DNA from: Pseudoponticoccus marisrubri
GTDB lineage: Bacteria; Pseudomonadota; Alphaproteobacteria; Rhodobacterales; Rhodobacteraceae
Reading direction: 5' to 3'
Length of the DNA stretch: 64,000 nt
NCBI RefSeq assembly: GCF_001482405.1
Contig: NZ_LPXO01000005.1
Coordinates: 124,001-188,000 of the forward strand
The notes under the pieces: model-generated
The model's input: only the letters and a program-made list of their open reading frames with translations
Database searches by the model: none
What the model was told of the DNA's origin: nothing
Translations under genes and position numbers: made by a program
Shown: positions 49,916 to 63,962 of the stretch, piece by piece
Numbering within the stretch: the first letter of the stretch is position 1
How the letters are laid out: every line of letters begins with the position of its first letter

Positions 49916-50998
49916 GTGGCACGGCTGGGGCTGATCATCAATCCGGTCGCCGGGCTGGGCGGTGCCATGGCGCGCAAGGGCAGCGACGAGGCCGATATCG
50001 GCGCGCGGGCCGCGGCCGAAGGGCGTGTCTCGCAGGCGCCGATGCGGGCTGCCCGGGCGTTGTCCGCCTTCCGCGAGAGTTGCGACGCCGAGGTGCTGGC
50101 CGGGCCGGTCCTGCCCGATACGGGCACGGTGACACCTGTCGGACCCGACGTGCTGCAGGGCACGGCCGAGGATACCAAGGCCTGCGTGCGCGCCATGGCG
50201 GGGCAGGTGGATCTGATCCTCTTTGCCGGCGGCGACGGCACGGCGCGCGACATCTGCGCGGCCAATGACACGGGCATCCCGATCCTGGGCATCCCCTCGG
50301 GCGTGAAGATGCATTCCGGCGTCTTTGCGCGCAGCCCCGAACGGGCCGGCCGCATGACGGCGGCTTTCCTGTCGGACACGCGGCAGCGGACCGAGATGGT
50401 CGAGATCCTCGATCTCGACGAGGCGGCGCGGCGGGCCGGGCGGCTGTCGGCGCGGCTCTATACCGTGGCGCGCACGCCTCTGGACCTCGCTGGCGCGCGG
50501 CAGAACCCCAAGGCGGGCAACACCGACCCGGTGGGCGAGATGGACGCCGCGCTGGCCGCCTATGTGGCAGGGATGCGCGAGGACACGCTTTACGTGCTGG
50601 GGCCCGGCGCCACGATGAAGGCGCTGAAGGACCGGCTGGGCGGCGGCTCGCTTCTGGGGGTGGACGTGGCCGAGGGCGGGCTGGTGACCGGCACCGACCT
50701 GGACGAGCGCGCGCTGATGGCGCGGGTCGCCGGGCGGCGGGTGCGCATCGTGCTGACGGTCGTGGGCGGGCAGGGCTTCGTGCTGGGCCGCGGCAATCAG
50801 CAGATCTCGCCCGCGGTGCTGCGCGCCGCCGGCATGCCGCCGATCGACGTGATCTGCGGGGCGGAGAAACTGGCGGGGCTCAACCCGCAGGAACTGACCA
50901 TCGACACGGGCGATGTCGCGCTGGACGGCACGCTTGCGGGGTACTGGCCGGTGATCACCGGTCCGGGCCGCAGGCAGGTGATGCGCGTGGTCGCGTAA
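49916..50998 (+). CDS. ATP-NAD kinase family protein (AcoX/COG3199-like)
   Basis: 360 aa. Starts ARLGLIINPVAGLGG and has the NAD-kinase GGDGTARD block (ILFAGGDGTARDIC) and IPSGVKMHSGVFA. The C-terminal half, GPGATMKALKDRLGGGSLLG and VVGGQGFVLGRGNQQISP, is typical of the AcoX-like branch rather than housekeeping NadK. I place the start at GTG 49916 (AAGGG just upstream), where family similarity begins; the upstream frame runs through intergenic DNA. Operon leader of two GcvP-like genes; it may phosphorylate NAD or an unrelated small substrate for them. Confidence 0.8.
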   Translation: MARLGLIINPVAGLGGAMARKGSDEADIGARAAAEGRVSQAPMRAARALSAFRESCDAEVLAGPVLPDTGTVTPVGPDVLQGTAEDTKACVRAMAGQVDLILFAGGDGTARDICAANDTGIPILGIPSGVKMHSGVFARSPERAGRMTAAFLSDTRQRTEMVEILDLDEAARRAGRLSARLYTVARTPLDLAGARQNPKAGNTDPVGEMDAALAAYVAGMREDTLYVLGPGATMKALKDRLGGGSLLGVDVAEGGLVTGTDLDERALMARVAGRRVRIVLTVVGGQGFVLGRGNQQISPAVLRAAGMPPIDVICGAEKLAGLNPQELTIDTGDVALDGTLAGYWPVITGPGRRQVMRVVA

Positions 50999-51016
50999 CA
51001 ACAACAGGAGAGGTAC

Positions 51017-52396
51017 ATGAAAGCGCATCCATGGATGGCGAATTCCGGCGGGTCGGCCAAGGAGGAGATGCTGGCCGCGCTGGGGGTGAACTCGGTCGAG
51101 GCGCTGTTCGCGCAGATCCCCGAGGATCACCTGATGGAACGCCCGCTGGAGCTGCCGCCGCAGCTGGCCTCGGAAGTGGCGCTGTCGCGGCATCTCGACG
51201 ACATGCTGGGCAAGAACACGGTCTTCCCGACCGGGGCCTGTTTCCGCGGGGCAGGGGCCTGGCCGCATTACGTGCCGGCGATCTGCGACGAGGTGGTCGG
51301 CCGCTACGAGTGGCAGACCTCGGTCTTCGGCTCGCCCGCCTCGGACCATGGTCGCAACCAGGCCTGGTTCGAGTTCACCAGCCAGATCGGTGCGCTGGTC
51401 GAGATGGATTTCGTGGGCCTGCCGGTCTACTCGTGGGGCTGTGCCATCGGGCATGCGGTGCGCATGGCCTCGCGCATGACGGGGCGGCGCAAGGTCATCA
51501 TCCCCGAGATTATGGACCCCGAGCGCCGCATGGTGCTGGAGACCTATTGCGAACCCGTCGAGATGGCCCGCCATATCGAGATCGTGCCGGTCAAGGTGGG
51601 CGCCGATGGCGCGATGGATCGCGACGACCTGCGCGCCAAGGTAGATGGCGCCGCGGCGCTGTATTTCGAGACACCGGGCTACCTGGGCGTGATCGACCCC
51701 GATCCGGGCGCGCTCTGTGCCATCGCGCGCGAGGCGGGCGCCGAGGCGATCGTGGGGGTCGACCCGCTGTCGCTGGGCCTGTTGGAGGCGCCGGGTGCCT
51801 ATGGCGCGACACTGGCCGTGGGCCCGACCCAGCCCTTGGGCGTGCACATGTATGCCGGCGGCGGCGTGGGCGGCTTCATCGCCAGCCCCGATGACGAGCG
51901 CTATGCGCGGGAATACAACACGCTGAACGTCTCGATCTCGGAAACCCGGGTGAAGGGCGAGCACGGCTTCGGCCTCGCGCTGTTCCACCAGTCCTCCTAC
52001 GGGATGCGCGACGAGGGCAAGGACTGGACCGGCAACTCGGTCTACCTGTGGGCGCTGGCCAATGCCGCCTACATGTCGGCGATGGGCCCCGAGGGCTTTG
52101 CCGAGATCGGCCGGCTGATCATGGCGCGGTCGCGCGCCGCGGCGCAGGCGCTGGACGGGCTGGAGGGCGTGTCGGTCGACCTGTCGCGCCCGGTCTTCAA
52201 GGAGTTCGTCGCGACCTTCAACAGGCCGGTGGCGCAGGTCAATGCAAGTCTGCGCGCGGCCGGCCTGCTGGGCGGCAAGGACCTGACCGGAGAGCCGGGG
52301 ATCGAGGGCCACGCGGCGCTGTTCTGCGTGACCGAAGCGCATACCGAGGACGATATCGACCGGCTGGTCGCAGCAGTGAAGGAGGCCGTGGCATGA
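51017..52396 (+). CDS. GcvPA-like protein (glycine decarboxylase subunit 1 family), divergent
   Basis: 459 aa, the length of GcvPA. Recognisable blocks: MLAALGVNSVEALFAQIP near the N-terminus, FRGAGAWPHYVPAICDEV and GGGVGGFIAS near residue 290. The normally conserved YDGATA-type block of GcvPA is replaced by PVYSWGCAIGHAV, so the active-site face differs. AGGAGAGG precedes ATG 51017. It partners the GcvPB-like protein encoded next. No H-protein or T-protein gene is near, so ordinary glycine cleavage is doubtful; another amino-acid decarboxylation is possible. Confidence 0.8.
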   Translation: MKAHPWMANSGGSAKEEMLAALGVNSVEALFAQIPEDHLMERPLELPPQLASEVALSRHLDDMLGKNTVFPTGACFRGAGAWPHYVPAICDEVVGRYEWQTSVFGSPASDHGRNQAWFEFTSQIGALVEMDFVGLPVYSWGCAIGHAVRMASRMTGRRKVIIPEIMDPERRMVLETYCEPVEMARHIEIVPVKVGADGAMDRDDLRAKVDGAAALYFETPGYLGVIDPDPGALCAIAREAGAEAIVGVDPLSLGLLEAPGAYGATLAVGPTQPLGVHMYAGGGVGGFIASPDDERYAREYNTLNVSISETRVKGEHGFGLALFHQSSYGMRDEGKDWTGNSVYLWALANAAYMSAMGPEGFAEIGRLIMARSRAAAQALDGLEGVSVDLSRPVFKEFVATFNRPVAQVNASLRAAGLLGGKDLTGEPGIEGHAALFCVTEAHTEDDIDRLVAAVKEAVA

Positions 52397-53937
52397 CCGC
52401 CCCCATCAAGGATTACCTGAAACGCTCCAACGGCTACCGGGCCGCGAAATGGTCCGAGCCGGTGGTGATGGAGATGACCGGCAGCGGCCGTCGCGGCGTG
52501 GTCTTCGAGGACGCGCCGGCGCCGGATCTGCCGGGCAAGGCGGCGCGCAAGACCGCGCCCGCGCTGCCCGAGATCACCGAGCATGACGCGCTGCGCCACT
52601 ACCTGCATCTCAGCCAGATGACGCTGGGCATGATGGGAATCTCGCTCTTCGGCACCTGCACGATGAAATACAACCCGCGGATCGGCGAGCGCGCCAGCCT
52701 CGACCATCTCAAGGGGCTGCATCCGCTGCAGGAGGCCGAGACGCTGCAGGGCGTGCTGGAGATGTACGACAAATTCAGCGATTTCCTCTGCGAAGTCAGC
52801 GGCATGGACCAGTTCGTCTTCCAGGCGGGCGGGGGCGCGGATGCGGCCTATACCCATGCCTGCGTGACGCGCGCCTATCATGCCAGCCGGGGCGAGCTGC
52901 AGCAGCGCGACCAGATCATCACCACGATCCAGACGCACCCCTGTTCGCCCGCCACCGCCAACACGGCCGGGTTCGAGGTGATCACGCTGAGCCTCGAGGA
53001 GAACGGCTATCCCTCGCTGGAACAGCTGAAATCCGTGGTCGGCCCGCGCACCGCGGCGCTGATGGTGAACAATCCCGACGACATGGGAATCTACAATCCC
53101 GACATCAAGGAATGGGTGCGGATCGTGCACGAGGCCGGTGGCCTGTGTTTCTACGACCATGCCAATTTCAACGGGGTGATGACGCGGCTGCGCGCGCGCG
53201 AGCTGGGCTTCGACGCCTGCATGTACATGCTGCACAAGACCTTCGGCGCGCCCAAGGGTGGCGGCGGCCCGGCGGTCGGCGCCTATGGCTGCGCCGAGCA
53301 CCTGGTGCCCTTCCTGCCCGGCCCGGTCGTGGTCAAGCAGGGGGACGGCTATGCGCTGGACACCGACCGGCCCCAGAGCATCGGGCGCGTGCGCGAATTC
53401 ATGGGCAACGCGCCGCAGGTGCTCAAGGCCTATGCCTGGGCGCGGGCCATGGGGGCCGAGGGGCTGCGCGAGGCGGCCGACATCTCGGTGCTGGCCAACA
53501 ATTACATGGACAAGCGCCTGGGCGAGGTGAAGGGCGTCAGCCGCTCCAACCCCGGGATCGACGTGCCGCGCATGGAGATGACGCGCCATTCGGTCGAGCA
53601 GGTGGCGCAGGACACAGGCTGTTCGATCTTCGACATCTCGATGCGGATGACCGATTTCGGGATCGACGCGCTGTGGCTGAGCCACGAGCCCTTCCTGGTG
53701 GCCGAGCCCTTCACGCCGGAGGCGGGCGAGCTTTGGTCGAAGGAGGATATCGACTACTGGATCGACGTGCTGGAACACGTGATCGGCGAGGCCTATTCCG
53801 ATCCCGAGATCGTCAAGACCGCGCCGCACAACGCGCCGATCCACCAGCTGACCAGCGCGCTCGACGAACCCGGCGTCTGGGCCACCACCTGGCGCGCCTA
53901 CGCGCGCAAGCACCTGAAGTCGATGGCGGCGGAGTGA
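52393..53937 (+). CDS. GcvPB-like protein (glycine decarboxylase subunit 2 family), PLP enzyme
   Basis: 514 aa. The PLP Lys is in LHKTFGAPKGGGGP, preceded by CFYDHANFNG with the PLP-stacking region, and GTCTMKYNPRIGE is a clear GcvPB signature. The usual AHGTNPASA block reads QTHPCSPATA here, a marked change at the substrate site. ATGA overlap with the GcvPA-like gene. A strong hairpin follows the stop. Most alphaproteobacteria carry one-chain GcvP, so this split, divergent pair is probably a specialised paralogue. Confidence 0.82.
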   Translation: MTAPIKDYLKRSNGYRAAKWSEPVVMEMTGSGRRGVVFEDAPAPDLPGKAARKTAPALPEITEHDALRHYLHLSQMTLGMMGISLFGTCTMKYNPRIGERASLDHLKGLHPLQEAETLQGVLEMYDKFSDFLCEVSGMDQFVFQAGGGADAAYTHACVTRAYHASRGELQQRDQIITTIQTHPCSPATANTAGFEVITLSLEENGYPSLEQLKSVVGPRTAALMVNNPDDMGIYNPDIKEWVRIVHEAGGLCFYDHANFNGVMTRLRARELGFDACMYMLHKTFGAPKGGGGPAVGAYGCAEHLVPFLPGPVVVKQGDGYALDTDRPQSIGRVREFMGNAPQVLKAYAWARAMGAEGLREAADISVLANNYMDKRLGEVKGVSRSNPGIDVPRMEMTRHSVEQVAQDTGCSIFDISMRMTDFGIDALWLSHEPFLVAEPFTPEAGELWSKEDIDYWIDVLEHVIGEAYSDPEIVKTAPHNAPIHQLTSALDEPGVWATTWRAYARKHLKSMAAE

Positions 53938-53973: not shown

Positions 53974-54070
53974 GCTCAGCGCGTGCAGACGCTCTTGCAA
54001 ACTCGCTTGGTGCGGCATACCTTGGTCCAAGGCTTGGACCAACCCGGGCCCTCGGATCGGACGTCGTGCC

Positions 54071-54295
54071 ATGCAGATGAACATTGCCGAAGCCAAGGCG
54101 AAATTGTCGGAGCTGATCGCCGCCGCCGAGCGTGGCGAAGAGGTAGTGATCGCGCGCGGCGGCAAGCCGATCGTGCGGCTGGTCTCGGCGCAGCCGCAGC
54201 CGGCCTTCCGCATCGGTATCGCCGACGGCGCAGTGACGGACCTTCCCGATTTCCTCGAACCGATGCCGGATGACGAGAGCGCCTTGTGGAGCTGA
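54071..54295 (+). CDS. Phd/YefM-type antitoxin
   Basis: 74 aa. MQMNIAEAKAKLSELIAAAE and GEEVVIARGGKPIVRLVS form the Phd/YefM DNA-binding fold; the acidic tail (EPMPDDESALWS) would wrap the toxin. The start could also be the second ATG, at 54077. Partner of the PIN toxin, whose GTG start lies within its last codons. Expected to bind its own promoter in the 130-nt gap upstream. Confidence 0.88.
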   Translation: MQMNIAEAKAKLSELIAAAERGEEVVIARGGKPIVRLVSAQPQPAFRIGIADGAVTDLPDFLEPMPDDESALWS

Positions 54296-54720
54296 GCACT
54301 GTCCTGCTCGACACCCACACCTGGGTCTGGAGCCTGTTCAAACCGTCGGAGCTGTCGCGCCCCGCGCGTGACGTGATCGAGAGTGCCCGTACGGTCTATG
54401 TACCCCCCTGCAGCTTTCACGAGATCACCGCCAAGCACCGATCCGGCAAGTGGCCCGAAGTAGGAGGGATCGTCGACCGGCTGCCGCAGCTTCTGCGGGC
54501 GCAAGGCGGGCTTGTCGCGCCCTACACGGCCGAGATGGCCATGTTGTCGGGCGGCATGGACTGGGCGCACAAGGACCCGTTCGACCGGATGATCGCGGCC
54601 ACGGCGATCGAGATCGCCTGTCCCGTGATTTCGAAGGACGCGGCCTTCGACGGGCTGACCGGGTTTCCGGGATGGGTGGGGCGCATCTGGAGCGAAATGC
54701 TGGAGACAGGCGCGCCCTGA
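54286..54720 (+). CDS. PIN-domain toxin (VapC-type ribonuclease)
   Basis: 144 aa from GTG 54286, overlapping the antitoxin by 10 bp. Acidic metal ligands are in LLDTHTWVW (Asp), SFHEITAKH (Glu) and AHKDPFDRMIAATA (two Asp), the COG3744-type PIN pattern. As a Mg-dependent RNase it would cut tRNA or mRNA when freed from the antitoxin. The pair sits between two catabolic operons. Confidence 0.9.
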   Translation: MELSTVLLDTHTWVWSLFKPSELSRPARDVIESARTVYVPPCSFHEITAKHRSGKWPEVGGIVDRLPQLLRAQGGLVAPYTAEMAMLSGGMDWAHKDPFDRMIAATAIEIACPVISKDAAFDGLTGFPGWVGRIWSEMLETGAP

Positions 54721-54736: not shown

Positions 54737-55447
54737 TCAGATGAAGGCCTCGAGCCGGGTGTTGACCACGATCTCGGGCAGGCTGGCCTGGTTGGGCAGG
54801 GACAGCACCAGCGAGACGATCTCGGCCACGTCCTCGGGGCGCAGGCGCTTGTCCTTGGGCGTGACGCCGGGGATGTCGGCGATCATCTCGGTGTCGATGG
54901 CGCCGGGGCAGATCGCGGTGCCGCGCAGCCCCTCGTCCCAGCCCTGGAAGCGGACGGCCTGCGTCATGGACAGCAGCGCGCCCTTGGTCATCACGTAGCC
55001 CAGCGAGGCGCTGGGATCGCGGTAGCGCTTGGCATCCGTCGAGGCGATCGACACCACGCGGCCGCGCCCCGAGGCCTTGAGATGGGGCAGGGCGGCGCGG
55101 ATCAGGCGGAAGGGCGCCTTGACGTTGACACGCCAGAGATCGTCGAGATCCTCGTCGGTGCCGCGGGTGAAATCCACCATCTTGAGGATCCCGGCATTGT
55201 TCACCAGCGCATCGGGCGCGCCCATCTGCGCCACGGTCGCGTCGACCCAGGCCTGCGCGGTCTCGGGCGCGTCGGCATCGAACCGATACGCCTGAAGCTG
55301 ATCGGGATCGGCATCGGGAAAGGCCTCGGCCAGCGCCTCGGGCCGGCGCAGTCCGACCGAGACGCGGTGCCCGTCGGCAAGGCAGCGGGCGGTGAGCGCG
55401 GCGCCAAGGCCCCGCGCCCCGCCCGAGATCATCACGATCCGGTCCAT
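54737..55447 (-). CDS. SDR-family oxidoreductase
   Basis: 236 aa: ISGGARGLG near residue 9, NNAGIL, Ser in VVSIASTDA and YVMTKGA as YxxxK; PGAIDTEMI follows. ATG 55447 shares one base with the stop of the preceding SDR-like gene (TGATG). Last gene of the - operon with aminotransferase and CUT1 importer. Substrate unknown. A longer frame upstream is an antisense artefact of the neighbouring gene. Confidence 0.88.
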   Translation of the reverse strand: MDRIVMISGGARGLGAALTARCLADGHRVSVGLRRPEALAEAFPDADPDQLQAYRFDADAPETAQAWVDATVAQMGAPDALVNNAGILKMVDFTRGTDEDLDDLWRVNVKAPFRLIRAALPHLKASGRGRVVSIASTDAKRYRDPSASLGYVMTKGALLSMTQAVRFQGWDEGLRGTAICPGAIDTEMIADIPGVTPKDKRLRPEDVAEIVSLVLSLPNQASLPEIVVNTRLEAFI

Positions 55448-56229
55448 CAGAACAGGCCCTGGTAGACGCCGCCATCGTTGATGATGTTCTGCCCCACGAT
55501 GAAACCCGCCTGGTCCGAGCACAGGAAGGTGACCAGATCGCCGCATTCCCTTGGGTCGGCAAAGCGCCCGGCGGGCACGCTCTGGATGCGGTTCTCGACG
55601 ATGGCCTCGTAGGTGGTGTTGCCGCGCCTTGCGTGGTTGTGCAGGTTGGTGTGCAGGGCGTCGGTGTCGAAGAAGCCCGGGCAGACCGTGTTGATCGTCA
55701 CGTTGTCGCGCACGGTTTCCTTGACCAGCGAGGCGATGGCCCCCGACAGCGCCAGCCGCGCGGAATGGCTGTGCGCGAAATGCGGCTGCGGGAACTTGAT
55801 GAAGCTGACCGAGATGTTGACGATGCGGCCGAACTTGCGTGCGCGCATCCCCGGCAGCACACCGGTGATCATTTCCAGCGACGAGAAGAAATGCGCGTTG
55901 AACCACTCGTCCCAGTCGGCGCGGGTCCAGTCCTCGTATTCGCCGGGGATCTGCCGGATGCCCGGGTTGGTGACGAGGATATCCGTCTCGCCGGCCTTGG
56001 ACAGGATCTCTGCCCGGCCCTCGGCATCGGTGAAATCGGCGGCGACGGTGGTGACGTTCACGCCATGCGCGGCGCGGATCTCCTCGGCGGTGGCCTCCAG
56101 CGCATCGGCGCTGCGCGCGTTCATCACGAGATCCACGCCCTCGGCGGCCAGCGAGAAGGCGCAGGCGCGGCCCAGCCCCTTGCTGGCGGCAGAGACGATG
56201 GCGCGGCGGCCCTTGAGACCCAGTTCCAT
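55447..56229 (-). CDS. SDR-like protein lacking canonical catalytic residues
   Basis: 260 aa with overall 3-oxoacyl-reductase-like fold. The cofactor motif TGxxxGxG is altered to SAASKGLG, NNAG to TNPGI, and the YxxxK dyad is replaced: HSHSARLALSG aligns Ser and Arg with Tyr and Lys. A known atypical SDR subgroup (BKR-like, reported as not matching the usual motifs) shows such changes. It may be a non-redox or regulatory partner of the SDR it is coupled to, or use a different mechanism. Confidence 0.82.
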   Translation of the reverse strand: MELGLKGRRAIVSAASKGLGRACAFSLAAEGVDLVMNARSADALEATAEEIRAAHGVNVTTVAADFTDAEGRAEILSKAGETDILVTNPGIRQIPGEYEDWTRADWDEWFNAHFFSSLEMITGVLPGMRARKFGRIVNISVSFIKFPQPHFAHSHSARLALSGAIASLVKETVRDNVTINTVCPGFFDTDALHTNLHNHARRGNTTYEAIVENRIQSVPAGRFADPRECGDLVTFLCSDQAGFIVGQNIINDGGVYQGLF

Positions 56230-56268: not shown

Positions 56269-57216
56269 TCAGGCGCCGGTTTCGGCGTGGTGCTGCGCCA
56301 CCGGGCGCGGCACGGGCTGGTTCAGCAGCCGGTCGAGCCCGCGCTGCAGGCCGGCCAGCGCCTCGCCCTGCAGCGGTTGCAGCGGCGGGCGGGGGGCGCC
56401 GCCCCCGGGGAAGCCCAGGTGGTCCATCGCCGCCTTGGTCGCGGGATAGAGCGTGCGGCCCCCGGTGATGAAGAGCTGGGTGAGCTCCTGCGCGCAGGAC
56501 TGGATCGCCCAGGCCTCGTCCATGCGGCCCTGCTGCACCATGGGCCAGATGTCCAGCAGCGCGTCCCAGACATTGGGGAAGCAGTCCACCAGCCCGTCGC
56601 AGCCTGCCAGCATGGCCGGCATGCCGATGGTCGAGGAGGGGCCGCAGAACACGCGGATGCGGTCGCCCGCGCGGGTCAGCGTGCCGTGGAAGTTCAGCCA
56701 GTCGCCCGAGCTTTCCTTGATCGCCACCACATTGTCGAGATCGGCCAGCTCGTCCACGATGTCGGGCGTCAGCGCGTTCCCGGCATTGCCGGGGATGTTG
56801 TAGAGCATCACCGGCAGCGGCGCGGCCTCGCTGACGGCGGTGAAATGGGCGATGATCTCGGGGCGCGAGAGATGCGCGAAGAAGGGCGGCATGACCAGCG
56901 CGGCATCGGCGCCCGCCTGCGCGGCATCCTTCATCGCGGCGATCACGTCGCGCGGGGTGATGCCCGCGGCACCGACGATGGCAGTGCCGTCGGGGCCCAC
57001 GGCCTTGCGGGCGGTGGCGTAGATCTCGGCGCGTTCCTCGGGGCGCAGGGCCCAGAACTCGCCCGTGCAGCCCGCGGCGACGACGCCGGTGGCGCCCTGC
57101 GCCATCAGCCGGCGGATATTCGCGGCCAGCGCGTCATGATCGACCGCGTTCTGCGCGGTGAAGGGCGTGGTGATCGCGGGCATGCAGCCGGACCATGTGA
57201 TGGTGTTTCTGTCCAC
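56269..57216 (-). CDS. DHDPS/N-acetylneuraminate lyase-family protein
   Basis: 315 aa from GTG 57216 (AGGA 7 nt upstream). All class I lyase features are present: GCTGEFWAL loop, LYNIPGNAG Tyr and Schiff-base Lys in VVAIKESSGD. The C-terminus is rich in Gly/Pro and ends QHHAETGA. It would cleave or dehydrate a 2-keto acid made by the aminotransferase encoded upstream. Exact substrate unknown. Confidence 0.88.
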   Translation of the reverse strand: MDRNTITWSGCMPAITTPFTAQNAVDHDALAANIRRLMAQGATGVVAAGCTGEFWALRPEERAEIYATARKAVGPDGTAIVGAAGITPRDVIAAMKDAAQAGADAALVMPPFFAHLSRPEIIAHFTAVSEAAPLPVMLYNIPGNAGNALTPDIVDELADLDNVVAIKESSGDWLNFHGTLTRAGDRIRVFCGPSSTIGMPAMLAGCDGLVDCFPNVWDALLDIWPMVQQGRMDEAWAIQSCAQELTQLFITGGRTLYPATKAAMDHLGFPGGGAPRPPLQPLQGEALAGLQRGLDRLLNQPVPRPVAQHHAETGA

Positions 57217-57234: not shown

Positions 57235-58632
57235 TTACAGGGGCGCGAGCGCGTCATCGGCGCGCAGCGCGTCGCAGACGGCCCCGGCCGCCTTGCGCAC
57301 CGTCGAGACCGCCAGGTCGATCTCTTCGGGGGTCACGGTGAAGGGCGGCGAGAAGCTGACCGCGTCGCCATTGGGCAGCGCCCGCACGATCACCCCATCC
57401 TCAAGCGCCGCGCGCACGATGCGCGGCCCCACCGTCTGCGCGGCGTCGAAACGCTGCCAGCCCTCGGCGGTGGGCCGCGCGAACTCGACCGCCGCCATCA
57501 GGCCCTTGCCGCGCGTCTCGGCCACGATGGGCAGGTCGTCGAAGGCCCGCGCCAGCGCGGTGTTCAGATAGGCGCCCATCTCGGCGGCGCGCGCGACGAG
57601 CCCCTCTTCCTCGACGATGTCGAGATTGGCCAGCGCGGCGGCGGCCATCACCGGGTGGGCGGTGTAGGTATAGCCGTGGCCAAACACGCCGTATTTCGCC
57701 GCACCCGCGCCCGAGATCACCTGCCAGACCTTGTCGCCCACCAGCACGCCCGACAGCGGCGCATAGCCCGATGTGATGCCCTTGGCGACCGAGATCAGGT
57801 CCGGTGTCATGCCGGTGGCCGGGGAGCCGAACCAGTGGCCCAGCCGGCCGAAGCCGCAGATCACCTCGTCGGCGATCAGCAGCACGTCGTAACGGTCGAG
57901 CACCTGCCGGATGGCCGGGAAATACCCCTCGGGCGGGACGATCACGCCGCCCGCGCCCATCACCGGCTCGGCGATGAAGGCGCCCACGGTCTCGGGGCCC
58001 TCGGCGAGGATCAGGTCCTCGAGCTCCTGCGCGAGCCGGGCCGAGAAGGCGGCGTCATCCTCGCCGGCATGGCGGGTCCAGATGTTGTGCGGCGCCGAGA
58101 CGTGGCGGATCATCGGCAGCGGCAGGTCGAAGCCCGCATGCAGCCCCGGCAGCCCGGTCAGCCCGCCGGTCATCACCGAGACGCCGTGATAGCCGCGGTC
58201 GCGGGCGATGATCTTCTTCTTCTCGGGCTTGCCGCGCACGTTGTTGTAATACCAGACCAGCTTGGCCTGCGTGTCATTGGCATCCGAGCCCGAGGCGCCG
58301 AAGAACACCTTGGAAAAGCCGTCCGGCGCCTTGTCGATCACCCGCTGGGCGAGGATCGCGGCGGGTTCGGTGGCCATCGAGCTGAAGCCGTGGAAATAGC
58401 TCAGCTGCCGGGCCTGGTCGGCCAGCGCATCGGCGATGCGCTCGCGCCCGTAGCCCACGTTGACGCACCACAGCCCGGCCATGGCGTCGAGGTAGCGCCG
58501 ACCGTCATCATCGGTGATCCAGCAGCCCTCGGCGCTGCGGGCCATCATCTGTGCGCCACCCTGCTCGTGGGTCTGTGCCATGCTGAAGGGGTGGAAGACA
58601 TAGCGCCTGTCCAGATCGCGCGTGCCGCTCAT
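57235..58632 (-). CDS. Class III aminotransferase (omega-amino acid/taurine:pyruvate-like)
   Basis: 465 aa. Fold-type I: FGASGSDANDTQAKL for PLP phosphate, RGYHGVSVMTG, the Asp of LLIADEVICGFGR and PLP Lys in ISVAKGITSG. The N-terminal FHPFSMAQTHEQG and GLWCVNVGYG resemble omega-amino acid:pyruvate aminotransferases. Co-transcribed with the DHDPS-type enzyme, suggesting transamination of the imported amino compound followed by cleavage. Amino-donor identity is unknown. Confidence 0.9.
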   Translation of the reverse strand: MSGTRDLDRRYVFHPFSMAQTHEQGGAQMMARSAEGCWITDDDGRRYLDAMAGLWCVNVGYGRERIADALADQARQLSYFHGFSSMATEPAAILAQRVIDKAPDGFSKVFFGASGSDANDTQAKLVWYYNNVRGKPEKKKIIARDRGYHGVSVMTGGLTGLPGLHAGFDLPLPMIRHVSAPHNIWTRHAGEDDAAFSARLAQELEDLILAEGPETVGAFIAEPVMGAGGVIVPPEGYFPAIRQVLDRYDVLLIADEVICGFGRLGHWFGSPATGMTPDLISVAKGITSGYAPLSGVLVGDKVWQVISGAGAAKYGVFGHGYTYTAHPVMAAAALANLDIVEEEGLVARAAEMGAYLNTALARAFDDLPIVAETRGKGLMAAVEFARPTAEGWQRFDAAQTVGPRIVRAALEDGVIVRALPNGDAVSFSPPFTVTPEEIDLAVSTVRKAAGAVCDALRADDALAPL

Positions 58633-58657: not shown

Positions 58658-59767
58658 TCATGTGGACCGCATCGGAATCACCGAGGCGGGCGTGTCATCG
58701 AGATTGAGGCGGGCACCGTTCTCGGTCGCCTCGAAAAGGTGGATCGCCGCGGGATCGAGACGCAGCGCCACCGGCTGGCCCACGTCGAGCCGGCGCGCGG
58801 CCTCGACCCGGGCCGAGATGCGCCGCTTGTCGGGCAGCTCCAGCGTGACGATGGTCTCGTGCCCGGTATTCTCGGCCAGCCGCACGGTGGCGGGCAGCCC
58901 CTCGCCGCTGCCGATGCTGATCGCCTCGGGCCGCACGCCCAGCACGGCCGGCCCATCATGCAGATCGGCCGAATAGGCGGTGCGGTCGATCGGCACGCGG
59001 TGGCCGGCGATCACGAAATCGCCGCCCTCGACCGTTCCCTCGACCTGGTTCATGGGCGGCGTGCCGATGAAGCCCGCGACGAAGCGGTTGGCCGGGCGGT
59101 TGTAGATCGCGTCGGGCGTGTCGAACTGCTGGACATGGCCGCCATGCATCACAGCGATGCGGCTGGCCATGGTCATCGCCTCCAGCTGGTCATGGGTGAC
59201 ATAGACCATGGTCTTGCCCAGCCGGCGGTGCAGCTCGATCAGCTCGGCGCGCATGTAGCTGCGCAGCTTGGCGTCGAGATTGGACAGCGGCTCGTCCAGC
59301 AGGAAGACCTGCGGCTCGCGCACCAGCGCGCGCCCCAGCGCGACACGTTGCTGCTGGCCGCCCGACAGCTGCTTGGGCTTGCGGTCCAAGAGCGCGCCCA
59401 GCTGCAGCAGGTCGGCCGCCTTCTGCACGGCCTCGGCCCGTGCGGCGCCCTTGATGCCGCGTTTCTTCAGCGGGTAGCCGATATTCTCGCCCACGGTCAT
59501 GTGGGGATAGAGCGCGTAGGACTGGAACACCATGGCGATGTCGCGCTTGCCGGGGGCGAGGTCGTTGACCACCCGGCCCCCGATGCTGATCTCGCCGCTG
59601 GTGGGAAAGTCCAGCCCCGCCAGCATGCGCAGCGTGGTGGACTTGCCGCAGCCCGAGGGGCCCAGCAGGGCGACGAACTCGCCGTCGCGGATGTCGAGGT
59701 CCAGCTTTTCGAGCGCGACGAAACTGCCGAAGCTCTTGTGGACGTCCTTGAAGATCACGTTGGCCAA
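58658..59767 (-). CDS. CUT1 ABC transporter ATP-binding protein (UgpC-type)
   Basis: 369 aa. GPSGCGKST, VFQSYALYPHM, LSGGQQQRVALGRA, FLLDEPLSNLDA, VYVTHDQ, then a C-terminal TOBE domain. The signature reads GGQQQ rather than GGQRQ, a common variant. Encoded after its permeases with an 18-nt gap; powers the importer at 59786-62943. Confidence 0.94.
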   Translation of the reverse strand: MANVIFKDVHKSFGSFVALEKLDLDIRDGEFVALLGPSGCGKSTTLRMLAGLDFPTSGEISIGGRVVNDLAPGKRDIAMVFQSYALYPHMTVGENIGYPLKKRGIKGAARAEAVQKAADLLQLGALLDRKPKQLSGGQQQRVALGRALVREPQVFLLDEPLSNLDAKLRSYMRAELIELHRRLGKTMVYVTHDQLEAMTMASRIAVMHGGHVQQFDTPDAIYNRPANRFVAGFIGTPPMNQVEGTVEGGDFVIAGHRVPIDRTAYSADLHDGPAVLGVRPEAISIGSGEGLPATVRLAENTGHETIVTLELPDKRRISARVEAARRLDVGQPVALRLDPAAIHLFEATENGARLNLDDTPASVIPMRST

Positions 59768-59785
59768 GTCAGGCTCCTTTGGTCG

Positions 59786-60613
59786 TCAGCCCTTGACCCC
59801 GCCGGCGCCGAAGCCGCTGGTCAGGTAGCTTTGCAGGAAGGCGAACACCACGATGAGCGGCAGGCTCATCATCACCGAGGCCGCCATGAGCAGGGACCAT
59901 TCGATGTTGAACGCCGAGATGAGCATGGACATCACGCCGGTGGTCAGCGGTGCGACCGCGTCGGAATTCACCAGCACCAGCGCGTAGAGATACTCGTTCC
60001 AGGACAGGATGAAGGTGAACAGCGCGGTCGAGATGATGCCCGGCAGAAGCTGCGGGAAGATCACGTCGCGAAAGGCGCCGATGCGGGTCGCACCATCGAC
60101 CAGCGCGGCGTTCTCGAGGTCCTCTGGGATGCCCTCCATGAAGCTGCGCAGCAGCCATAGCGCGTAGGGCAGGGCAAAGGTCGTATGCGCGAGGATCAGG
60201 CTGAACAGCGTGTTGGACAGCCCCAGCGTGACCATCATCAGGTAGAGCGGGATGATCAGCACCACCGAGGGCAGCAGGTAGGTGAACAGCACCAGCAGGG
60301 CCAGCGTCTCGCGGCCGCGATAGGTGAAGCGCACAAGACTGTAGGCCCCCAGCGTCCCCAGCGCCACGACGAACAGCGTCGTCGTCGTGGCCAGCACCAC
60401 CGAGTTGCGGAAGTAGCGCAGGAACGGGGTTTCCGACAGCAGCCGCCAGTAATGCTCGAAGGTGACGGATTCCGGGATCCAGGTCGGCGGGATGCGGAAC
60501 AGCTCGGATTGCGGCTTCAGCGAGGTGACGATCATCCAGACCAGCGGGAAGGCGATCAGGAAGACCAGCGACCATGTGAAGACGTTCAGAAGGACGGGGC
60601 GCAGGAGTTTCAT
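59786..60613 (-). CDS. CUT1 ABC transporter permease (UgpE/MalG-type)
   Basis: 275 aa, six TM segments. The contact loop is EDLENAALVDGATRIGAFR; the end is GFGAGGVKG. ATG 60613 overlaps the partner permease stop (ATGA). The longer open frame in this phase is antisense-like and not used. Confidence 0.92.
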   Translation of the reverse strand: MKLLRPVLLNVFTWSLVFLIAFPLVWMIVTSLKPQSELFRIPPTWIPESVTFEHYWRLLSETPFLRYFRNSVVLATTTTLFVVALGTLGAYSLVRFTYRGRETLALLVLFTYLLPSVVLIIPLYLMMVTLGLSNTLFSLILAHTTFALPYALWLLRSFMEGIPEDLENAALVDGATRIGAFRDVIFPQLLPGIISTALFTFILSWNEYLYALVLVNSDAVAPLTTGVMSMLISAFNIEWSLLMAASVMMSLPLIVVFAFLQSYLTSGFGAGGVKG

Positions 60614-61527
60614 GCCTTCTCCTTCGTCTGGCGGATGTAGAGCACCATGAAGACCAGCATCACCAGCATCATGCCCACGGAATAGGCTGCGGCCTGGCCC
60701 ATCTGGTTGAGGCCGAAGGCCTCTTGGTAGACCAGCAGCGACAGCGTCTGGGTCGAGGTCACCGGCCCGCCGCCGGTCAGCAGGTAGAGCAGGTCGAATT
60801 CCTTGAAGTCCCAGATGGCGCGCAGCAGGATGATGACCGTCAGGACCGAGCGCAGCTGCGGCAGGGTGATGTCCCAGAACCGCGCGATGGGGCCCGCGCC
60901 GTCGATCCGCGCCGCCTCGTAGAGGTTCTCGGGGATGGTCTGCAGGCGGGCCAGCACGGCGATGACGACGAAGGGGAAGTATTTCCACGCCCCCACGAGG
61001 ATCACGCCGATCATCGCGTTGGGCATCGAGCCCAGCCAGTCCAGCGGCATGTCGATGATCCCCAGCTGCATCAGCCCGTGGTTGAGCGCGCCGTAGAGAT
61101 CGTTGAACAGCCATTTCCAGACCAGCACTGCGACGACGGTGGACAGGAAATAGGGAAACAGGACAAGGCTGCGCGCGAGCGAGCGGAACCAGATGTTCTG
61201 GTGCAGCAGCAGCGCCAGCCCGACGCCCGCTACGATCTGCAGGGTCAGCGTGCCCACGGTCCAGATCAGCGTGACGCGCAGCGAATTCCAGAACGCCTTG
61301 CCGGTCAGCAGCTCGACATAGTTGTCGGCCCCGACAAAGCCGCCCTGCAGCGTGGGCGTGTAGATCGAGAAGACCGACAGGTAGATCGCCGCCAGCAGCG
61401 GGTAGACGATGACCAGCGTGAAGACGAGGATGGTCGGCGCGATGAGCAGCACGCCGAGACGGGCATAGGCCCGTTCCAGCGGCGAGGACACCGCGCTGCG
61501 GGGGGGATCGGTTGCGATGGCGGTCAT
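60610..61527 (-). CDS. CUT1 ABC transporter permease (UgpA/MalF-type)
   Basis: 305 aa, first TM LGVLLIAPTILVFTLVIVYP. The contact loop is ENLYEAARIDGAGPIARFW. AGGACG precedes ATG 61527. Preceded in the transcript by a perfect hairpin after the binding-protein gene. Confidence 0.92.
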   Translation of the reverse strand: MTAIATDPPRSAVSSPLERAYARLGVLLIAPTILVFTLVIVYPLLAAIYLSVFSIYTPTLQGGFVGADNYVELLTGKAFWNSLRVTLIWTVGTLTLQIVAGVGLALLLHQNIWFRSLARSLVLFPYFLSTVVAVLVWKWLFNDLYGALNHGLMQLGIIDMPLDWLGSMPNAMIGVILVGAWKYFPFVVIAVLARLQTIPENLYEAARIDGAGPIARFWDITLPQLRSVLTVIILLRAIWDFKEFDLLYLLTGGGPVTSTQTLSLLVYQEAFGLNQMGQAAAYSVGMMLVMLVFMVLYIRQTKEKA

Positions 61528-61548
61528 GGAACGTCCTGGTCAGGAGGC

Positions 61549-61578
61549 GCCCGGCGGCAAGGAGGACAGCCGCCGGGC
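61549..61578 (-). other. GC hairpin between binding-protein and permease genes
   Basis: GCCCGGCGGC (61549-61558) and GCCGCCGGGC (61569-61578) form a perfect 10-bp stem. In the mRNA the 10-nt loop reads UGUCCUCCUU, which is complementary to Shine-Dalgarno sequences. It could stabilise the upstream mRNA and perhaps mask the permease ribosome site. Confidence 0.6.
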
Positions 61579-61605
61579 AGGGTCATCATGGCTGGATCGG
61601 GGAGA

Positions 61606-62943
61606 TCAGCCGGCCATGATCTCTTCGATGCGCGTGGCGGTCTCGCCCAGCACGGCATCCACGTTCTCGTCGTTCAGCACGACGCGCTGCACCATCTCGG
61701 CGATGACGCCGGAATTGACCACTTCGCCGGCCTTGGTGTTGGGCTGGTGCTCGGTGCTTTCCCAGCCGAGGTTGAAGCCGTTGGCCGCGGCCGAGGACAT
61801 CAGCTCGACCTCTTCGCTGTAGGTCTCGATGATCTCGTTGTCCTGGTAGGCGGGATCGTTCGAGATGGTCTTGAGCACCGGCAGCACGTGCCCAGGGGCG
61901 GCGTGCAGCTGCTGGATGTAGCCCTCGGGGTCATAGAGGAAGGCCGCGAACTGCTTGGTCGCCTCCATGTTGCCGGCCTGTTTCGGGATGAAGACCGAGG
62001 GGAAGTCGTTGAAGGTCCAGGGCGCGATATCGGCCGACTTGGTCGGGTAGAGATCGCAGGTCACGTGCTCGGCGATGCCGGGGTTCTGGTTGGCGACGTT
62101 GATCAGCACGCGGCCGGTATAGATGCCGGTGGCGCAGGCGCCCGAGACGAAGGCCGTCAGGCTGTCGCCCCAGCTGTAATTGGTGGCGCCCGGCGGGCAG
62201 TACTGGCGCATCGCCTTGTAGAATTCCAGCGCGTCGCGCGTCTCGGGGCTGTCGATGGCCACGTCGAGATCGGGGCTGAAAACCATGCCGCCGGCCTGGT
62301 GGATGACGCCGATGAAGATCAGCGTGGTCATGGAATTGCGGCCATAGGGCAGGGGCGCGCCGTAGATGCCGCCGCCCTGCATCGCCTCGCAGGCGGACAG
62401 AAGTTCGTCCCACGTACGCGGGTTCTTGTCGATGCCGGCCTTTTCCATCAGGTCGCGGCGCAGCCAGATCATGTTGGCGGCCGAGTTGCCGATCGAGGTG
62501 CCGGCATACTGGCCCTGATCGATCTCGTAGATGCGGTTGACGCCGTCATAGAATTTCTCTGGGCCGATCATCTCGATCACATCGTTGAACGGCTCCAGCA
62601 GCCCGTTGCGCCAGTAGTTGGACACCGCGAAGCTGGGCAGGTGCGTGACGATGTTCGGCACGTCGCCGCTGGCGAAAGCGGCCGCGAGTTGAGGGGCATA
62701 GCCTTCGTCCGATGTGCGCTCGAACACGACTTTGACGTTCTCGTGCAGGGCTTCGAAATTGGCGATCTGGGTGCGGTAGGCGGCCAGCTGCTCCGGCGAG
62801 GATTGCGGCGACCACCAGCGCAGGGTGATCTGCTCCTGGGCCTGGATGCGGCGCGGCATGAGGGCGGCGGCACCGGCCGCGGCCATTCCGGTCAGAACCG
62901 AGCGACGCGGCAGGCCCGCGTTCATTCCTTTATTGGTGGTCAT
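61606..62943 (-). CDS. CUT1 ABC transporter substrate-binding protein, Tat-type signal
   Basis: 445 aa. The N-terminus has a twin Arg, LPRRSVLTGMAAAGAAALMP, suggesting Tat export, with cleavage after IQA. Family 1 pattern: LRWWSPQSSPEQLAAYR; FASGDVPNIVTHLPSF. GGGGAG precedes ATG 62943. First gene of the - operon with permeases, ATPase, aminotransferase, lyase and SDRs; the ligand could be an amino sugar or amino-containing polyol, by inference from the aminotransferase. Confidence 0.9.
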   Translation of the reverse strand: MTTNKGMNAGLPRRSVLTGMAAAGAAALMPRRIQAQEQITLRWWSPQSSPEQLAAYRTQIANFEALHENVKVVFERTSDEGYAPQLAAAFASGDVPNIVTHLPSFAVSNYWRNGLLEPFNDVIEMIGPEKFYDGVNRIYEIDQGQYAGTSIGNSAANMIWLRRDLMEKAGIDKNPRTWDELLSACEAMQGGGIYGAPLPYGRNSMTTLIFIGVIHQAGGMVFSPDLDVAIDSPETRDALEFYKAMRQYCPPGATNYSWGDSLTAFVSGACATGIYTGRVLINVANQNPGIAEHVTCDLYPTKSADIAPWTFNDFPSVFIPKQAGNMEATKQFAAFLYDPEGYIQQLHAAPGHVLPVLKTISNDPAYQDNEIIETYSEEVELMSSAAANGFNLGWESTEHQPNTKAGEVVNSGVIAEMVQRVVLNDENVDAVLGETATRIEEIMAG

Positions 62944-62963
62944 GTGACACTCCCCTGTTGGCA

Positions 62964-62989
62964 ATGTTCGCATATCGAACATATGTTCG
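62964..62989. promoter_or_regulatory. Palindromic operator array, probable IclR site
   Basis: ATGTTCG-CATAT-CGAACAT (62964-62982) has 7-bp perfect arms, and CGAACATATGTTCG (62976-62989) is a 14-bp perfect palindrome sharing the middle arm. Three alternating half-sites lie 21-46 nt before the binding-protein start, in the gap shared with the IclR gene. The TTCG/CGAA spacing suits IclR-family operators. Confidence 0.65.
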
Positions 62990-63110
62990 TATTATTGGCG
63001 AGCCGAATCTCGAATCGCAAGTGTTTTTTGGGCGGGCCGGGGGAGATGCCGGGTTCCGCTGCCGCATTGGCGGTGATAGTTCGGATCGCGCACAAGGAAT
63101 GGGATGTCAG

Positions 63111-63962
63111 ATGGCGAAACCTGCAAAGACCACCCCTGTCCAGGCCACCAGCGACACGCGGCTGGGCACCGTGACCGCCGAAGCCGGCGACGAGCAGGAC
63201 AAGCTGTCCAGCCGTGATTTCGTCAGCTCGCTGTCGCGGGGCCTCGAGATCCTGTCGAGCTTCAGCCGCACCTCGAAGAAGATGACCCTCTCCGAGGTCG
63301 CGGTCGAGACGGGGATGAGCCGCGCCACAGCGCGCCGCTTCCTGCTGACGCTGGTCAAGGAGGGCTATGTCGTCACCGACGGCAAGCTGTTCGACCTGAC
63401 CCCCAAGGTGCTGGACCTTGGCTTTTCGGTGCTGTCCAAGATTGGCATCTGGGACCGCGCCCGCCCCTTCATGGAGCGGCTGTCGGAGCAGACCGGGGAA
63501 AGCTGCACGGCGGCGATCCTCGACGGGCTGGAAGTGGTCTACGTGGCCGGTGTGCAGGCGCACAACATCATCAGCGTGGGCATCACGGTGGGCAGCCGGC
63601 AATCGGCCTTCTACACCGCCAATGGCCGCGTGCTGCTGGCGCTGCAGCCGGAAGAGAACTGGGACGGGATCATCGCCAATGCCCGCCTGATGCCGCGCAC
63701 CCAGCACAGCGTGACCAACAAGGCCGAGCTGCGCGGGATCCTCGAACAGGTGCGCGACCAGGGCTGGGCGCTGGTCGACCAGGAGCTGGAAGAGGGGCTG
63801 CTCTCCATCGCGATCCCGCTCAAGTTCCGCTCGGGCGTGCTGGCGGGCTCGATCAACATCGCCGTGCCCTCGATCCGGGCCACGCGCGAGACGATGATCG
63901 AGACCTACCTGCCCAAGCTGCGCGAGACCGCCGACGACATCCAGAAATCGCTGGCCCATTGA
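63111..63962 (+). CDS. IclR-family transcriptional regulator
   Basis: 283 aa. A polar N-terminal extension of about 35 residues is followed by the winged helix (KMTLSEVAVETGMSRATARR) and the IclR ligand domain (ESCTAAILDGLEVVYVAG; LSIAIPLKFRSGVLAGSINI). ATG 63111 was chosen; an in-frame ATG at 63099 is directly adjacent to AAGGA and less likely. Divergent from the importer-aminotransferase operon, with palindromes between, so it is the likely regulator. In style it is close to PcaR/PobR-type regulators. Confidence 0.92.
   Translation: MAKPAKTTPVQATSDTRLGTVTAEAGDEQDKLSSRDFVSSLSRGLEILSSFSRTSKKMTLSEVAVETGMSRATARRFLLTLVKEGYVVTDGKLFDLTPKVLDLGFSVLSKIGIWDRARPFMERLSEQTGESCTAAILDGLEVVYVAGVQAHNIISVGITVGSRQSAFYTANGRVLLALQPEENWDGIIANARLMPRTQHSVTNKAELRGILEQVRDQGWALVDQELEEGLLSIAIPLKFRSGVLAGSINIAVPSIRATRETMIETYLPKLRETADDIQKSLAH

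Follow-up and report, generated by a model that had tools for sequence, protein, structure and literature searches.

To our knowledge the GcvP-type proteins characterised so far are glycine decarboxylases, and acetoin dehydrogenase, a thiamin-dependent enzyme, has AcoX, which we take to be a member of COG3199, as its genetic companion. In the human P-protein Y161 and Y164 are active-site residues, and R373 and K376 were assigned to H-protein docking by a docking prediction and not from the structure of a complex (PMC7259800). In E. coli acetoin dehydrogenase is active only when AcoX is present, yet AcoX is reported to be without acetoin, NAD or pyruvate kinase activity (PMC10943186). No description of the three-gene arrangement considered here was found in the open-access journal literature searched, where PMC6722718 and PMC10256816 deal with acetoin, HCN and ordinary gcvP.

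The window analysed, 64,000 nucleotides of the Pseudoponticoccus marisrubri genome, carries at 49916-53937 a single operon of kinase-like, GcvPA-like and GcvPB-like genes, the last two sharing a 4-nt ATGA overlap, and the pair so encoded appears to be a separate, widespread family misnamed as a glycine-cleavage enzyme. The coordinates that a preliminary description had given for this trio are right, and Pfam and NCBIfam name its products as follows.

49916..50998, + strand: COG3199-type NAD-kinase/diacylglycerol-kinase-like protein (P0001), GTG start; Pfam NAD_kinase 6.7e-15, NAD_kinase_C 9.2e-11
51017..52396, + strand: GcvPA-like subunit (P0002); NCBIfam GcvPA, Pfam GDC-P 1.1e-41, homologue of 1wyt_A
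52393..53937, + strand: GcvPB-like subunit with the PLP lysine (P0003); NCBIfam GcvPB, homologue of 1wyt_B

Databases name the pair glycine dehydrogenase because both subunits exceed the NCBI cut-offs, at 379.3 bits against 364 for GcvPA and 488.8 bits against 441 for GcvPB, and GcvPB is so named in seven of the eight plasmid records with the trio, the remaining one being unannotated. The residues themselves say otherwise, and would make the pair something other than a glycine dehydrogenase. The phylogeny proposed as a check in the preliminary description places the pair in a separate clade: in a quick GcvPB tree, which took 40 of the 88 clade-1 B rows and included a long outgroup, clade 1 (40 rows) with its sister clade 2 (3 rows) parts from 23 ordinary split GcvPB on a branch of 3.35 (SH-aLRT 100). 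The motifs concerned are these:

51317..51352, + strand: TSVFGSPASDHG replacing the canonical TxYTPYQPExxxG; Val103 at the human Y161 position, Y164 position deleted
51422..51460, + strand: PVYSWGCAIGHAV replacing the YDGATA block; A-subunit residues 136-148
51986..52039, + strand: HQSSYGMRDEGKDWTGNS replacing the canonical TREQHIRRxKATSNICT; both residues predicted to dock H-protein (Arg, Lys) changed
52930..52959, + strand: QTHPCSPATA replacing SAHGTNPASA; B-subunit residues 180-189, His retained
53233..53244, + strand: HKTF block with PLP lysine K282; 88 of 88 clade-1 and 24 of 24 canonical rows

The preliminary description had picked out PVYSWGCAIGHAV in place of YDGATA, QTHPCSPATA in place of AHGTNPASA and a PLP lysine block that is kept; both replacements are located in the subunits, the HKTF block with K282 is present, and by alignment the altered residues lie in the glycine site and in the motif predicted to dock H-protein. 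In the B subunit the PLP-ring aspartate D255 and the histidine H182 are as invariant as K282 over the same clade-1 and canonical rows, and N258 and N260 are retained in all aligned rows. At the Y161 position clade 1 has Val 76 times, Ile 5, Glu 4 and His once (n=86) and never Tyr, against Tyr in 23 of 23 canonical rows, and all 86 clade-1 rows show a gap at the Y164 position, which is occupied by Tyr in each of the 22 canonical loci; clade 2 has Tyr at the Y161 position and retains the His of PHGGG. The SHGTNPAS loop of clade 1 keeps its His, with Pro for Gly in 87 of 88 rows and Cys for Thr/Ser in 84 of 88. At the positions of R373 and K376, an interface proposed by the published docking prediction (PMC7259800), Arg is kept by 2 and Lys by 18 of the 86 clade-1 rows, against 23 of 23 canonical rows for each. 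Most positions of PVYSWGCAIGHAV and QTHPCSPATA are conserved across the clade-1 alignments of 86 rows for A and 88 for B, so that chance similarity is ruled out for these motifs, and positions at least 85% conserved within each set yet differing between clade 1 and canonical number 71 in B and 55 in A. The B alignment lost only L010, which is short, and the A alignment is without L069, L086, L028 and L010; L005 lies inside L056 on the same contig, and so one clade-1 row is counted twice. The record of L037 bears the name Enemella (Actinomycetota), yet the locus has 90% identity to the window, and the record is perhaps contaminated.

That neither gcvH nor gcvT lies nearby, as the preliminary description had it, is borne out more widely: tblastn of 87 clade-1 loci (flanks of 1.5-14 kb, often truncated where a contig ends) with the genome's own GcvH gave no gcvH, and with its own GcvT one distant match, in L099. 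The normal gcvTHP that was to be looked for elsewhere in the genome is found as an ordinary gcvT-gcvH-gcvP on another contig. An ordinary GcvP stands alongside the trio in 27 of 28 genomes, so an H-protein is usually available, and a full-length GcvH match was obtained in 12 of the 13 genomes tested. In Histidinibacterium aquaticum (one genome, its completeness unstated) the trio is present and neither another GcvP nor a GcvH was found, and this points to a function other than glycine cleavage. A genome with no other GcvP was what the preliminary description had counted against its own reading; the window's genome does have another, and none was found in H. aquaticum, which has apparently lost its glycine-cleavage system. 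GcvP and GcvH were also not found in its genus-mate G278, which has no trio, and three genus-mates carry both; a stand-alone GcvT match like that beside gcvH in G276 is absent in G242 and G278, G242 having one further GCV_T match (127 bits, in a 482-aa frame). Loss of gcvTHP in assembly is made less probable for H. aquaticum by the same genes missing from G278 and by the lack of a stand-alone GcvT match.

These genomes bear on the idea of an alternative glycine decarboxylase, in which the pair would be a P-protein specialised to use the chromosomal H-protein or some other lipoyl domain when the surrounding pathway releases glycine. Such an enzyme would fit the cut-offs exceeded by both subunits, the nearest solved structures, which are GcvP, and the ready supply of GcvP and GcvH, but it seems quite improbable given that replacements affect the tyrosine segment of the glycine site, the SHGTNPAS loop and the predicted docking motif alike, that gcvH was not found in the loci and that the trio occurs in a genome without a detected GcvH. 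The motif replacement, the clade position and that same genome likewise lower the case for an ordinary duplicate of glycine cleavage.

P0001, presumably of COG3199, has NAD_kinase domains and a GGDGT motif, as expected of the NAD-kinase superfamily, and gave no NCBIfam match at E 1e-3; GGDGT and GRGNQ are invariant in all 29 aligned rows. Its AlphaFold model (pLDDT 88.6) is matched in VIA-align by diacylglycerol kinase (2qvl, Z 12.2), NAD kinase (7mh7, Z 11.5) and SphK1 (3vzb, Z 10.8), in a list that mixes unrelated folds among the kinases, such as a substrate-binding protein at Z 11.4, and Foldseek gave weak matches of low TM-score with an unrelated glycosyltransferase on top. The constancy of linkage to the pair, another proposed check, comes out as near-constant: the COG3199 gene is in 76 of 80 pair loci, three of the four misses being contig ends, and lies at most 500 bp from the pair in 74 of the 76, in four arrangements. 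Both are on the same plasmid in eight of eight records. Since the motifs and the gene linkage are both conserved, the altered pair is not a product of chance. Kinase and B distances give a mirror-tree correlation of 0.85 over 76 loci, which shared ancestry alone could explain. In the 28 trio genomes the trio's COG3199 gene is the only one found; these were drawn from COG3199-bearing loci and so test for further copies, not for linkage.

The preliminary description had suggested that the kinase-like protein could supply a phosphorylated cofactor or substrate; were it the substrate, the pair would act on a phosphorylated amino acid. Cobalamin synthesis provides a precedent, with a threonine kinase followed by a threonine-phosphate decarboxylase, and the invariant GGDGT motif, the fold like diacylglycerol, NAD and sphingosine kinases, and Lys288, a residue six places past the PLP lysine that all 88 clade-1 rows share and that is His in ordinary GcvPB, are all consistent with it. 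However clade 2 has His at the Lys288 position, the L090 locus has the pair and no COG3199 gene, 27 of the 29 COG3199 loci taken from the phylum sample (1.5-kb flanks) are without an adjoining GcvP-like pair, a COG3199 gene once adjoins a GcvPAB pair with canonical motifs, and AcoX is needed in its own system while reportedly free of the kinase activities named above, all of which makes a phosphorylated substrate distinctly unlikely.

Downstream of the trio the window holds a convergent operon, a transporter and a regulator:

54737-55906 (start internal) and 55447-56229, - strand: frames of two SDR oxidoreductases, convergent operon; Pfam adh_short in both
56269..57216, - strand: DHDPS-family lyase, convergent operon; NCBIfam dapA-like, below cut-off (cluster 7)
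57235..58632, - strand: class-III aminotransferase; NCBIfam PRK06105 above cut-off; top match PRK07482, which stays under its own (cluster 8)
58658-59767, - strand: ABC transporter ATPase (transporter 58658..62982); Pfam ABC_tran
59786-61114 (frame) and 60610-61527, - strand: ABC permeases; Pfam BPD_transp_1 twice
61606-62982, - strand: ABC solute-binding protein; Pfam SBP_bac_1
62958..63962, + strand: IclR-family regulator; Pfam IclR_C 5e-39

As raw counts with no background, SDRs are found in 57 of 80 loci, DHDPS-family lyases in 40 and class-III aminotransferases in 30, the labels being single-linkage clusters each named from one representative. On the same raw footing one or more of DHDPS, aminotransferase III, DAO and 3HCDH are present in 45 of the 53 loci of at least 20 kb, and none of the four in 18 of 80, some of them cut by contig ends. 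Amine oxidases, a 2Fe-2S oxidase and ABC transporters are among the neighbours across loci, and an AMP-ligase, a zinc alcohol dehydrogenase and an APC permease occur in some. Ten neighbours scanned gave no NCBIfam equivalog above cut-off, and subfamily models above cut-off only for two, the window's aminotransferase and the ALDH. The DHDPS-family, DAO, 2Fe-2S oxidase, aminotransferase III and ABC genes suggest pathways for hydroxyproline, opines, ectoine or amino sugars as candidates, and none of these fits all neighbour contexts.

With such neighbours the pair could be a PLP enzyme of the carbon-carbon lyase or aldol type, by which a beta-hydroxy amino acid or amino alcohol is cleaved or joined, the SDR, DHDPS-family and aminotransferase products processing the fragments. 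The frequency of SDRs and DHDPS-family lyases, the altered pocket residues and the nearness of the B fold (modelled with a middling pLDDT of 69.5) to sphingosine-1-phosphate lyase and other fold-type I enzymes at Z 26-28 speak for this. Split GcvPB chains match clearly higher, at Z 39, likeness of fold proves no reaction, and with the known GcvP-type proteins being decarboxylases a lyase of this kind seems unlikely.

We put at about an even chance the reading of the trio as one unit, a putative H-protein-independent PLP heterodimer acting on a non-glycine amino acid with the COG3199 protein as dedicated partner. The preliminary view, of a PLP decarboxylase system with a new substrate or acceptor, is supported in part, by the clade, the linkage, the normal gcvTHP in the genome and the placing of the altered residues. 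The two subunits would form an alpha-beta PLP enzyme derived from a split glycine decarboxylase and no longer part of the glycine cleavage system, and the substrate would be made or imported by the neighbouring catabolic genes. The likeliest chemistry we infer is that the PLP aldimine loses its alpha-carboxylate and that the resulting carbanion is protonated or taken by a small acceptor in place of lipoyl-H-protein, although a related carbanion lyase would also suit this heterodimer. The COG3199 protein would most likely be an AcoX-like kinase-fold factor required for activity, and by analogy is possibly an AcoX-type activator. A wider proposal, of a new heterodimeric PLP class spread horizontally through bacteria and to a haloarchaeal plasmid, which would decarboxylate or cleave a natural amino acid without lipoyl-H-protein and depend on a kinase-fold activator, is tentative and rather doubtful.

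If that wider proposal is true, COG3199 proteins, AcoX included, would in general be activating partners of two-subunit carbanion-forming enzymes, PLP- or thiamin-dependent. The tight COG3199 link offers a second system in which to probe the role of AcoX-like proteins. The pair is a natural test of how a P-protein behaves once freed from H-protein, and the catabolic context suggests an uncharacterised amino-compound pathway in marine and soil bacteria. The glycine dehydrogenase label given by pipelines would lead genome-scale models to add a duplicate glycine cleavage step, probably wrongly.

With the split GcvPA/GcvPB systems (PRK00451 and PRK04366; Thermus 1wyt/1wyu) the pair has in common the two-subunit architecture and fold, the PLP lysine and aspartate and the histidine of the H-G-T-N loop. 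Unlike them it forms a separate clade, has YTPYQ, YDGATA, SHGTNPAS and TREQHIRR replaced, shows no gcvH linkage, is present in a genome without a detected GcvH and is tied to COG3199 and catabolic genes. Stand-alone COG3199-type genes of the phylum sample have 36-44% identity to the window's protein, but most are without an adjoining GcvP-like pair and on another branch of the kinase tree, a quick one of a chosen subset. AcoX (acoXABC) resembles the COG3199 protein in being predicted as small-molecule/NAD-kinase-like and in being encoded beside a two-subunit enzyme, which is acetoin dehydrogenase for AcoX, whereas in the window it is the GcvP-like PLP pair.

The three genes lie where the preliminary description placed them, and are listed here with two further features of the window:

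49916-50998, plus strand: COG3199 protein, NAD-kinase/diacylglycerol-kinase-like
51017-52396, plus strand: GcvPA-like subunit (A)
52393-53937, plus strand: GcvPB-like subunit (B)
47103-48776: SMP-30/gluconolactonase domain fused to an IclR-type regulator
53978-54720, immediately past the trio: Phd/YefM-type antitoxin and PIN-domain pair

With an 18-base gap between the COG3199 and A genes and a four-base overlap between the A and B genes, the trio reads as one operon. Family scans give NAD-kinase-like, GcvPA and GcvPB, the latter two scoring above NCBI's curated cut-offs, and both divergent motifs quoted previously, with the PLP lysine block, are present in the pair. The genome's single ordinary gcvT, gcvH and fused gcvP (a 958-residue frame) are grouped on contig C6, separate from the window's contig C5, and so the pair is a second, divergent P-protein-like enzyme; the finding named earlier as one that would refute a separate role, a genome with no other GcvP, is not seen here. 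Apart from gcvT, this genome has nine GCV_T matches, all within open frames 810-1114 residues long, which may be dimethylglycine or sarcosine dehydrogenases.

The pair occurs in seven of 240 genomes of a class sample, namely the window's, three with a B subunit at 66-69% identity and three at about 46%, the remaining GcvPB being at 38% or less to the window's B subunit. A wider scan, at one genome per species, gave 457 relatives, of which the best 80 (61-94%) were taken as loci; their record titles name Alpha-, Beta- and Gammaproteobacteria, Actinomycetota and one Bacteroidota. Eight further records (53-91%), one haloarchaeal, came from a plasmid collection. The trio of one locus titled Enemella evansiae (Actinomycetota; L037) is 84-90% identical to the window's, and that assembly is possibly mislabelled or contaminated. 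In a quick tree 40 B rows of the window's pair and its near relatives (clade 1) form a single group (SH-aLRT 98), these and three rows of a small sister clade (clade 2) are set off by a branch of 3.35 (support 100), and 23 ordinary split GcvPB form their own group (support 99), so that the separate clade raised earlier as a possibility is recovered; the tree, which includes a fused outgroup, carries a long-branch warning, and the groups correspond to splits at single branches, which are the same wherever the root is placed.

Residues were compared across 88 clade-1 and 24 ordinary B rows, and 86 and 23 A rows, with human numbering transferred via alignments. Positions at least 85% conserved within each set yet different between sets number 71 in B and 55 in A, and K282, D255, H182, N258 and N260 of B are unchanged in every row of both sets. 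Passages of PMC7259800 give human Y161 and Y164, in the YTPYQ segment, as active-site residues, and likewise T894 and W897 of the C-terminal domain. In clade 1 the segment is replaced, the Y161 position being occupied by Val, Ile, Glu or His and the Y164 position deleted (86 of 86 rows each), the Thr is Trp in 87 of 88 rows and the Trp/Phe is Glu in 82 of 88. Replaced too are the YDGATA block of A and the SHGTNPAS loop of B (G to P in 87/88, T/S to C in 84/88), and the sixth residue past the PLP lysine, His in ordinary GcvPB, is Lys288 in 88/88. R373 and K376, within TREQHIRRxKATSNICT, are predicted in the same passages to bind H-protein; the window has HQSSYGMRDEGKDWTGNS there, and clade 1 keeps the Arg in 2/86 rows and the Lys in 18/86. 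Clade 2 still has the Tyr that corresponds to Y161 and a His where clade 1 has Lys288, but TPYQ is missing and HPSDAA or HPADAA stands where ordinary GcvPB has HGTNPAS; judged by these residues, it is intermediate between clade 1 and ordinary GcvP.

No gcvH was found in 87 clade-1 loci by tblastn with the genome's own GcvH, in keeping with its noted absence near the trio. An ordinary GcvP is also present in 27 of 28 genomes picked from the loci, the exception being Histidinibacterium aquaticum (L039), whose genome gave no GcvH match while each of 12 others searched gave a full-length one; the fourteenth target, a Natronosalvus plasmid, matched over 33 residues only. Among five Histidinibacterium genomes, H. 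aquaticum (G242) and G278 are without GcvH and ordinary GcvP, and the other three have both. GcvT adjoins gcvH in one of these (G276), whereas in G242 and G278 the GcvT-type matches above 190 bits all lie within frames of at least 800 residues, and so two of the five seem to have lost the glycine cleavage operon entirely; of these two, H. aquaticum retains the trio, whose proteins are 80, 86 and 89% identical to those of the window. Its retention without a detected GcvH is, in one genome, the strongest single evidence for freedom from H-protein. Since the glycine-site tyrosines, the SHGTNPAS loop and the company of H-protein all fail, the pair is not filed as GcvP, although its mode of action is probably still that of a PLP decarboxylase.

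Within the best 80 of 457 relatives the A gene adjoins the B gene in 79 loci, the other beginning at a contig end, and COG3199 is present in 76. The constant linkage raised earlier as a possibility largely stands, as contig ends explain three of the four misses, but an actinobacterial MAG (L090) has the pair with nothing matching COG3199 across 8.6 kb upstream and 0.7 kb downstream. COG3199 is upstream and co-directional in 54 of the 76 and overlaps the A gene in another two; it is upstream and divergent in 18 and downstream in two, and it lies within 500 bases of the pair in 74. Each of the 28 genomes, drawn from loci already holding COG3199, has one, always adjoining the pair (in two adjacent pieces in G249). 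COG3199 is also present on each of the eight pair-bearing plasmids; on that of Natronosalvus about 54 kb separate it from the pair, and its neighbours there are an aminotransferase, a DHDPS-family gene and SDRs. In the class sample eight of 230 genomes match COG3199, six with a clade-1 or clade-2 pair, one (G087) beside a canonical-motif pair and one by a 47-residue fragment. The G087 locus (L136, 5945-11034) is a second GcvPAB with a frame break in GcvPB, and a further neighbour is, we presume, alpha-oxoamine-synthase-like. G224 has a clade-2 pair and COG3199 is not among its listed matches; its contig stops 48 bases past the B match, and in other clade-2 genomes the kinase sits just past B.

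The window's trio faces an operon, mostly conserved in near relatives, whose products are two SDRs, a lyase of the DHDPS family, a class-III aminotransferase and an ABC transporter; an IclR regulator follows. On plasmid pAMI4 of Paracoccus aminophilus such genes are joined by those for a 3HCDH-type dehydrogenase, two FAD oxidoreductases and a protein resembling sugar-phosphate isomerases. Raw counts in the best 80 loci are SDR 57, IclR 43, DAO 42, DHDPS 40, aminotransferase III 30 and 3HCDH 28, and at least one of the last three or DAO occurs in 45 of 53 loci of at least 20 kb (raw count). These neighbours suggest a setting in the breakdown of amino compounds. Other settings are an AMP-ligase and TetR in Pseudomonas, an APC permease and deacylase in Rhodococcus, and zinc alcohol dehydrogenases in Sphingomonas.

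The GGDGT kinase motif and a GRGNQ motif are invariant in 29 of 29 COG3199 rows. The predicted model (pLDDT 88.6) matches diacylglycerol kinase 2qvl (Z 12.2, rmsd 3.4, 145 residues), DgkB 2qv7 (11.9, 3.4, 145), Pseudomonas NAD kinase 7mh7 (11.5, 3.3, 138) and SphK1 3vzb (10.8, 2.6, 125), similar Z scores also being reached by unrelated folds. COG3199 also occurs away from the pair: it is matched in 39 of 398 phylum-sample genomes and, in 29 loci inspected with 1.5-kb flanks (out of 38 other than the window), adjoins the pair in only two. Its neighbour in ten of these (L172, L179, L183, L185, L188, L189, L192, L193, L197, L198) is what we take to be pdxB, of vitamin B6 synthesis, and in 15 presumably yfcL, epmC or mnmC; a link of stand-alone COG3199 with B6 is possible. 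In a tree of 37 rows two changes suffice to separate the trio kinases from the stand-alone ones, and clade-2 kinases fall, with weak support, with the stand-alone proteins. AcoX, encoded in acetoin operons, is presumably also a COG3199 member. When P. putida acetoin dehydrogenase genes were placed in E. coli, activity required AcoX, for which passages of PMC10943186 report no acetoin, NAD or pyruvate kinase activity. By analogy, an AcoX-like activating role for COG3199 would be the simplest common reading.
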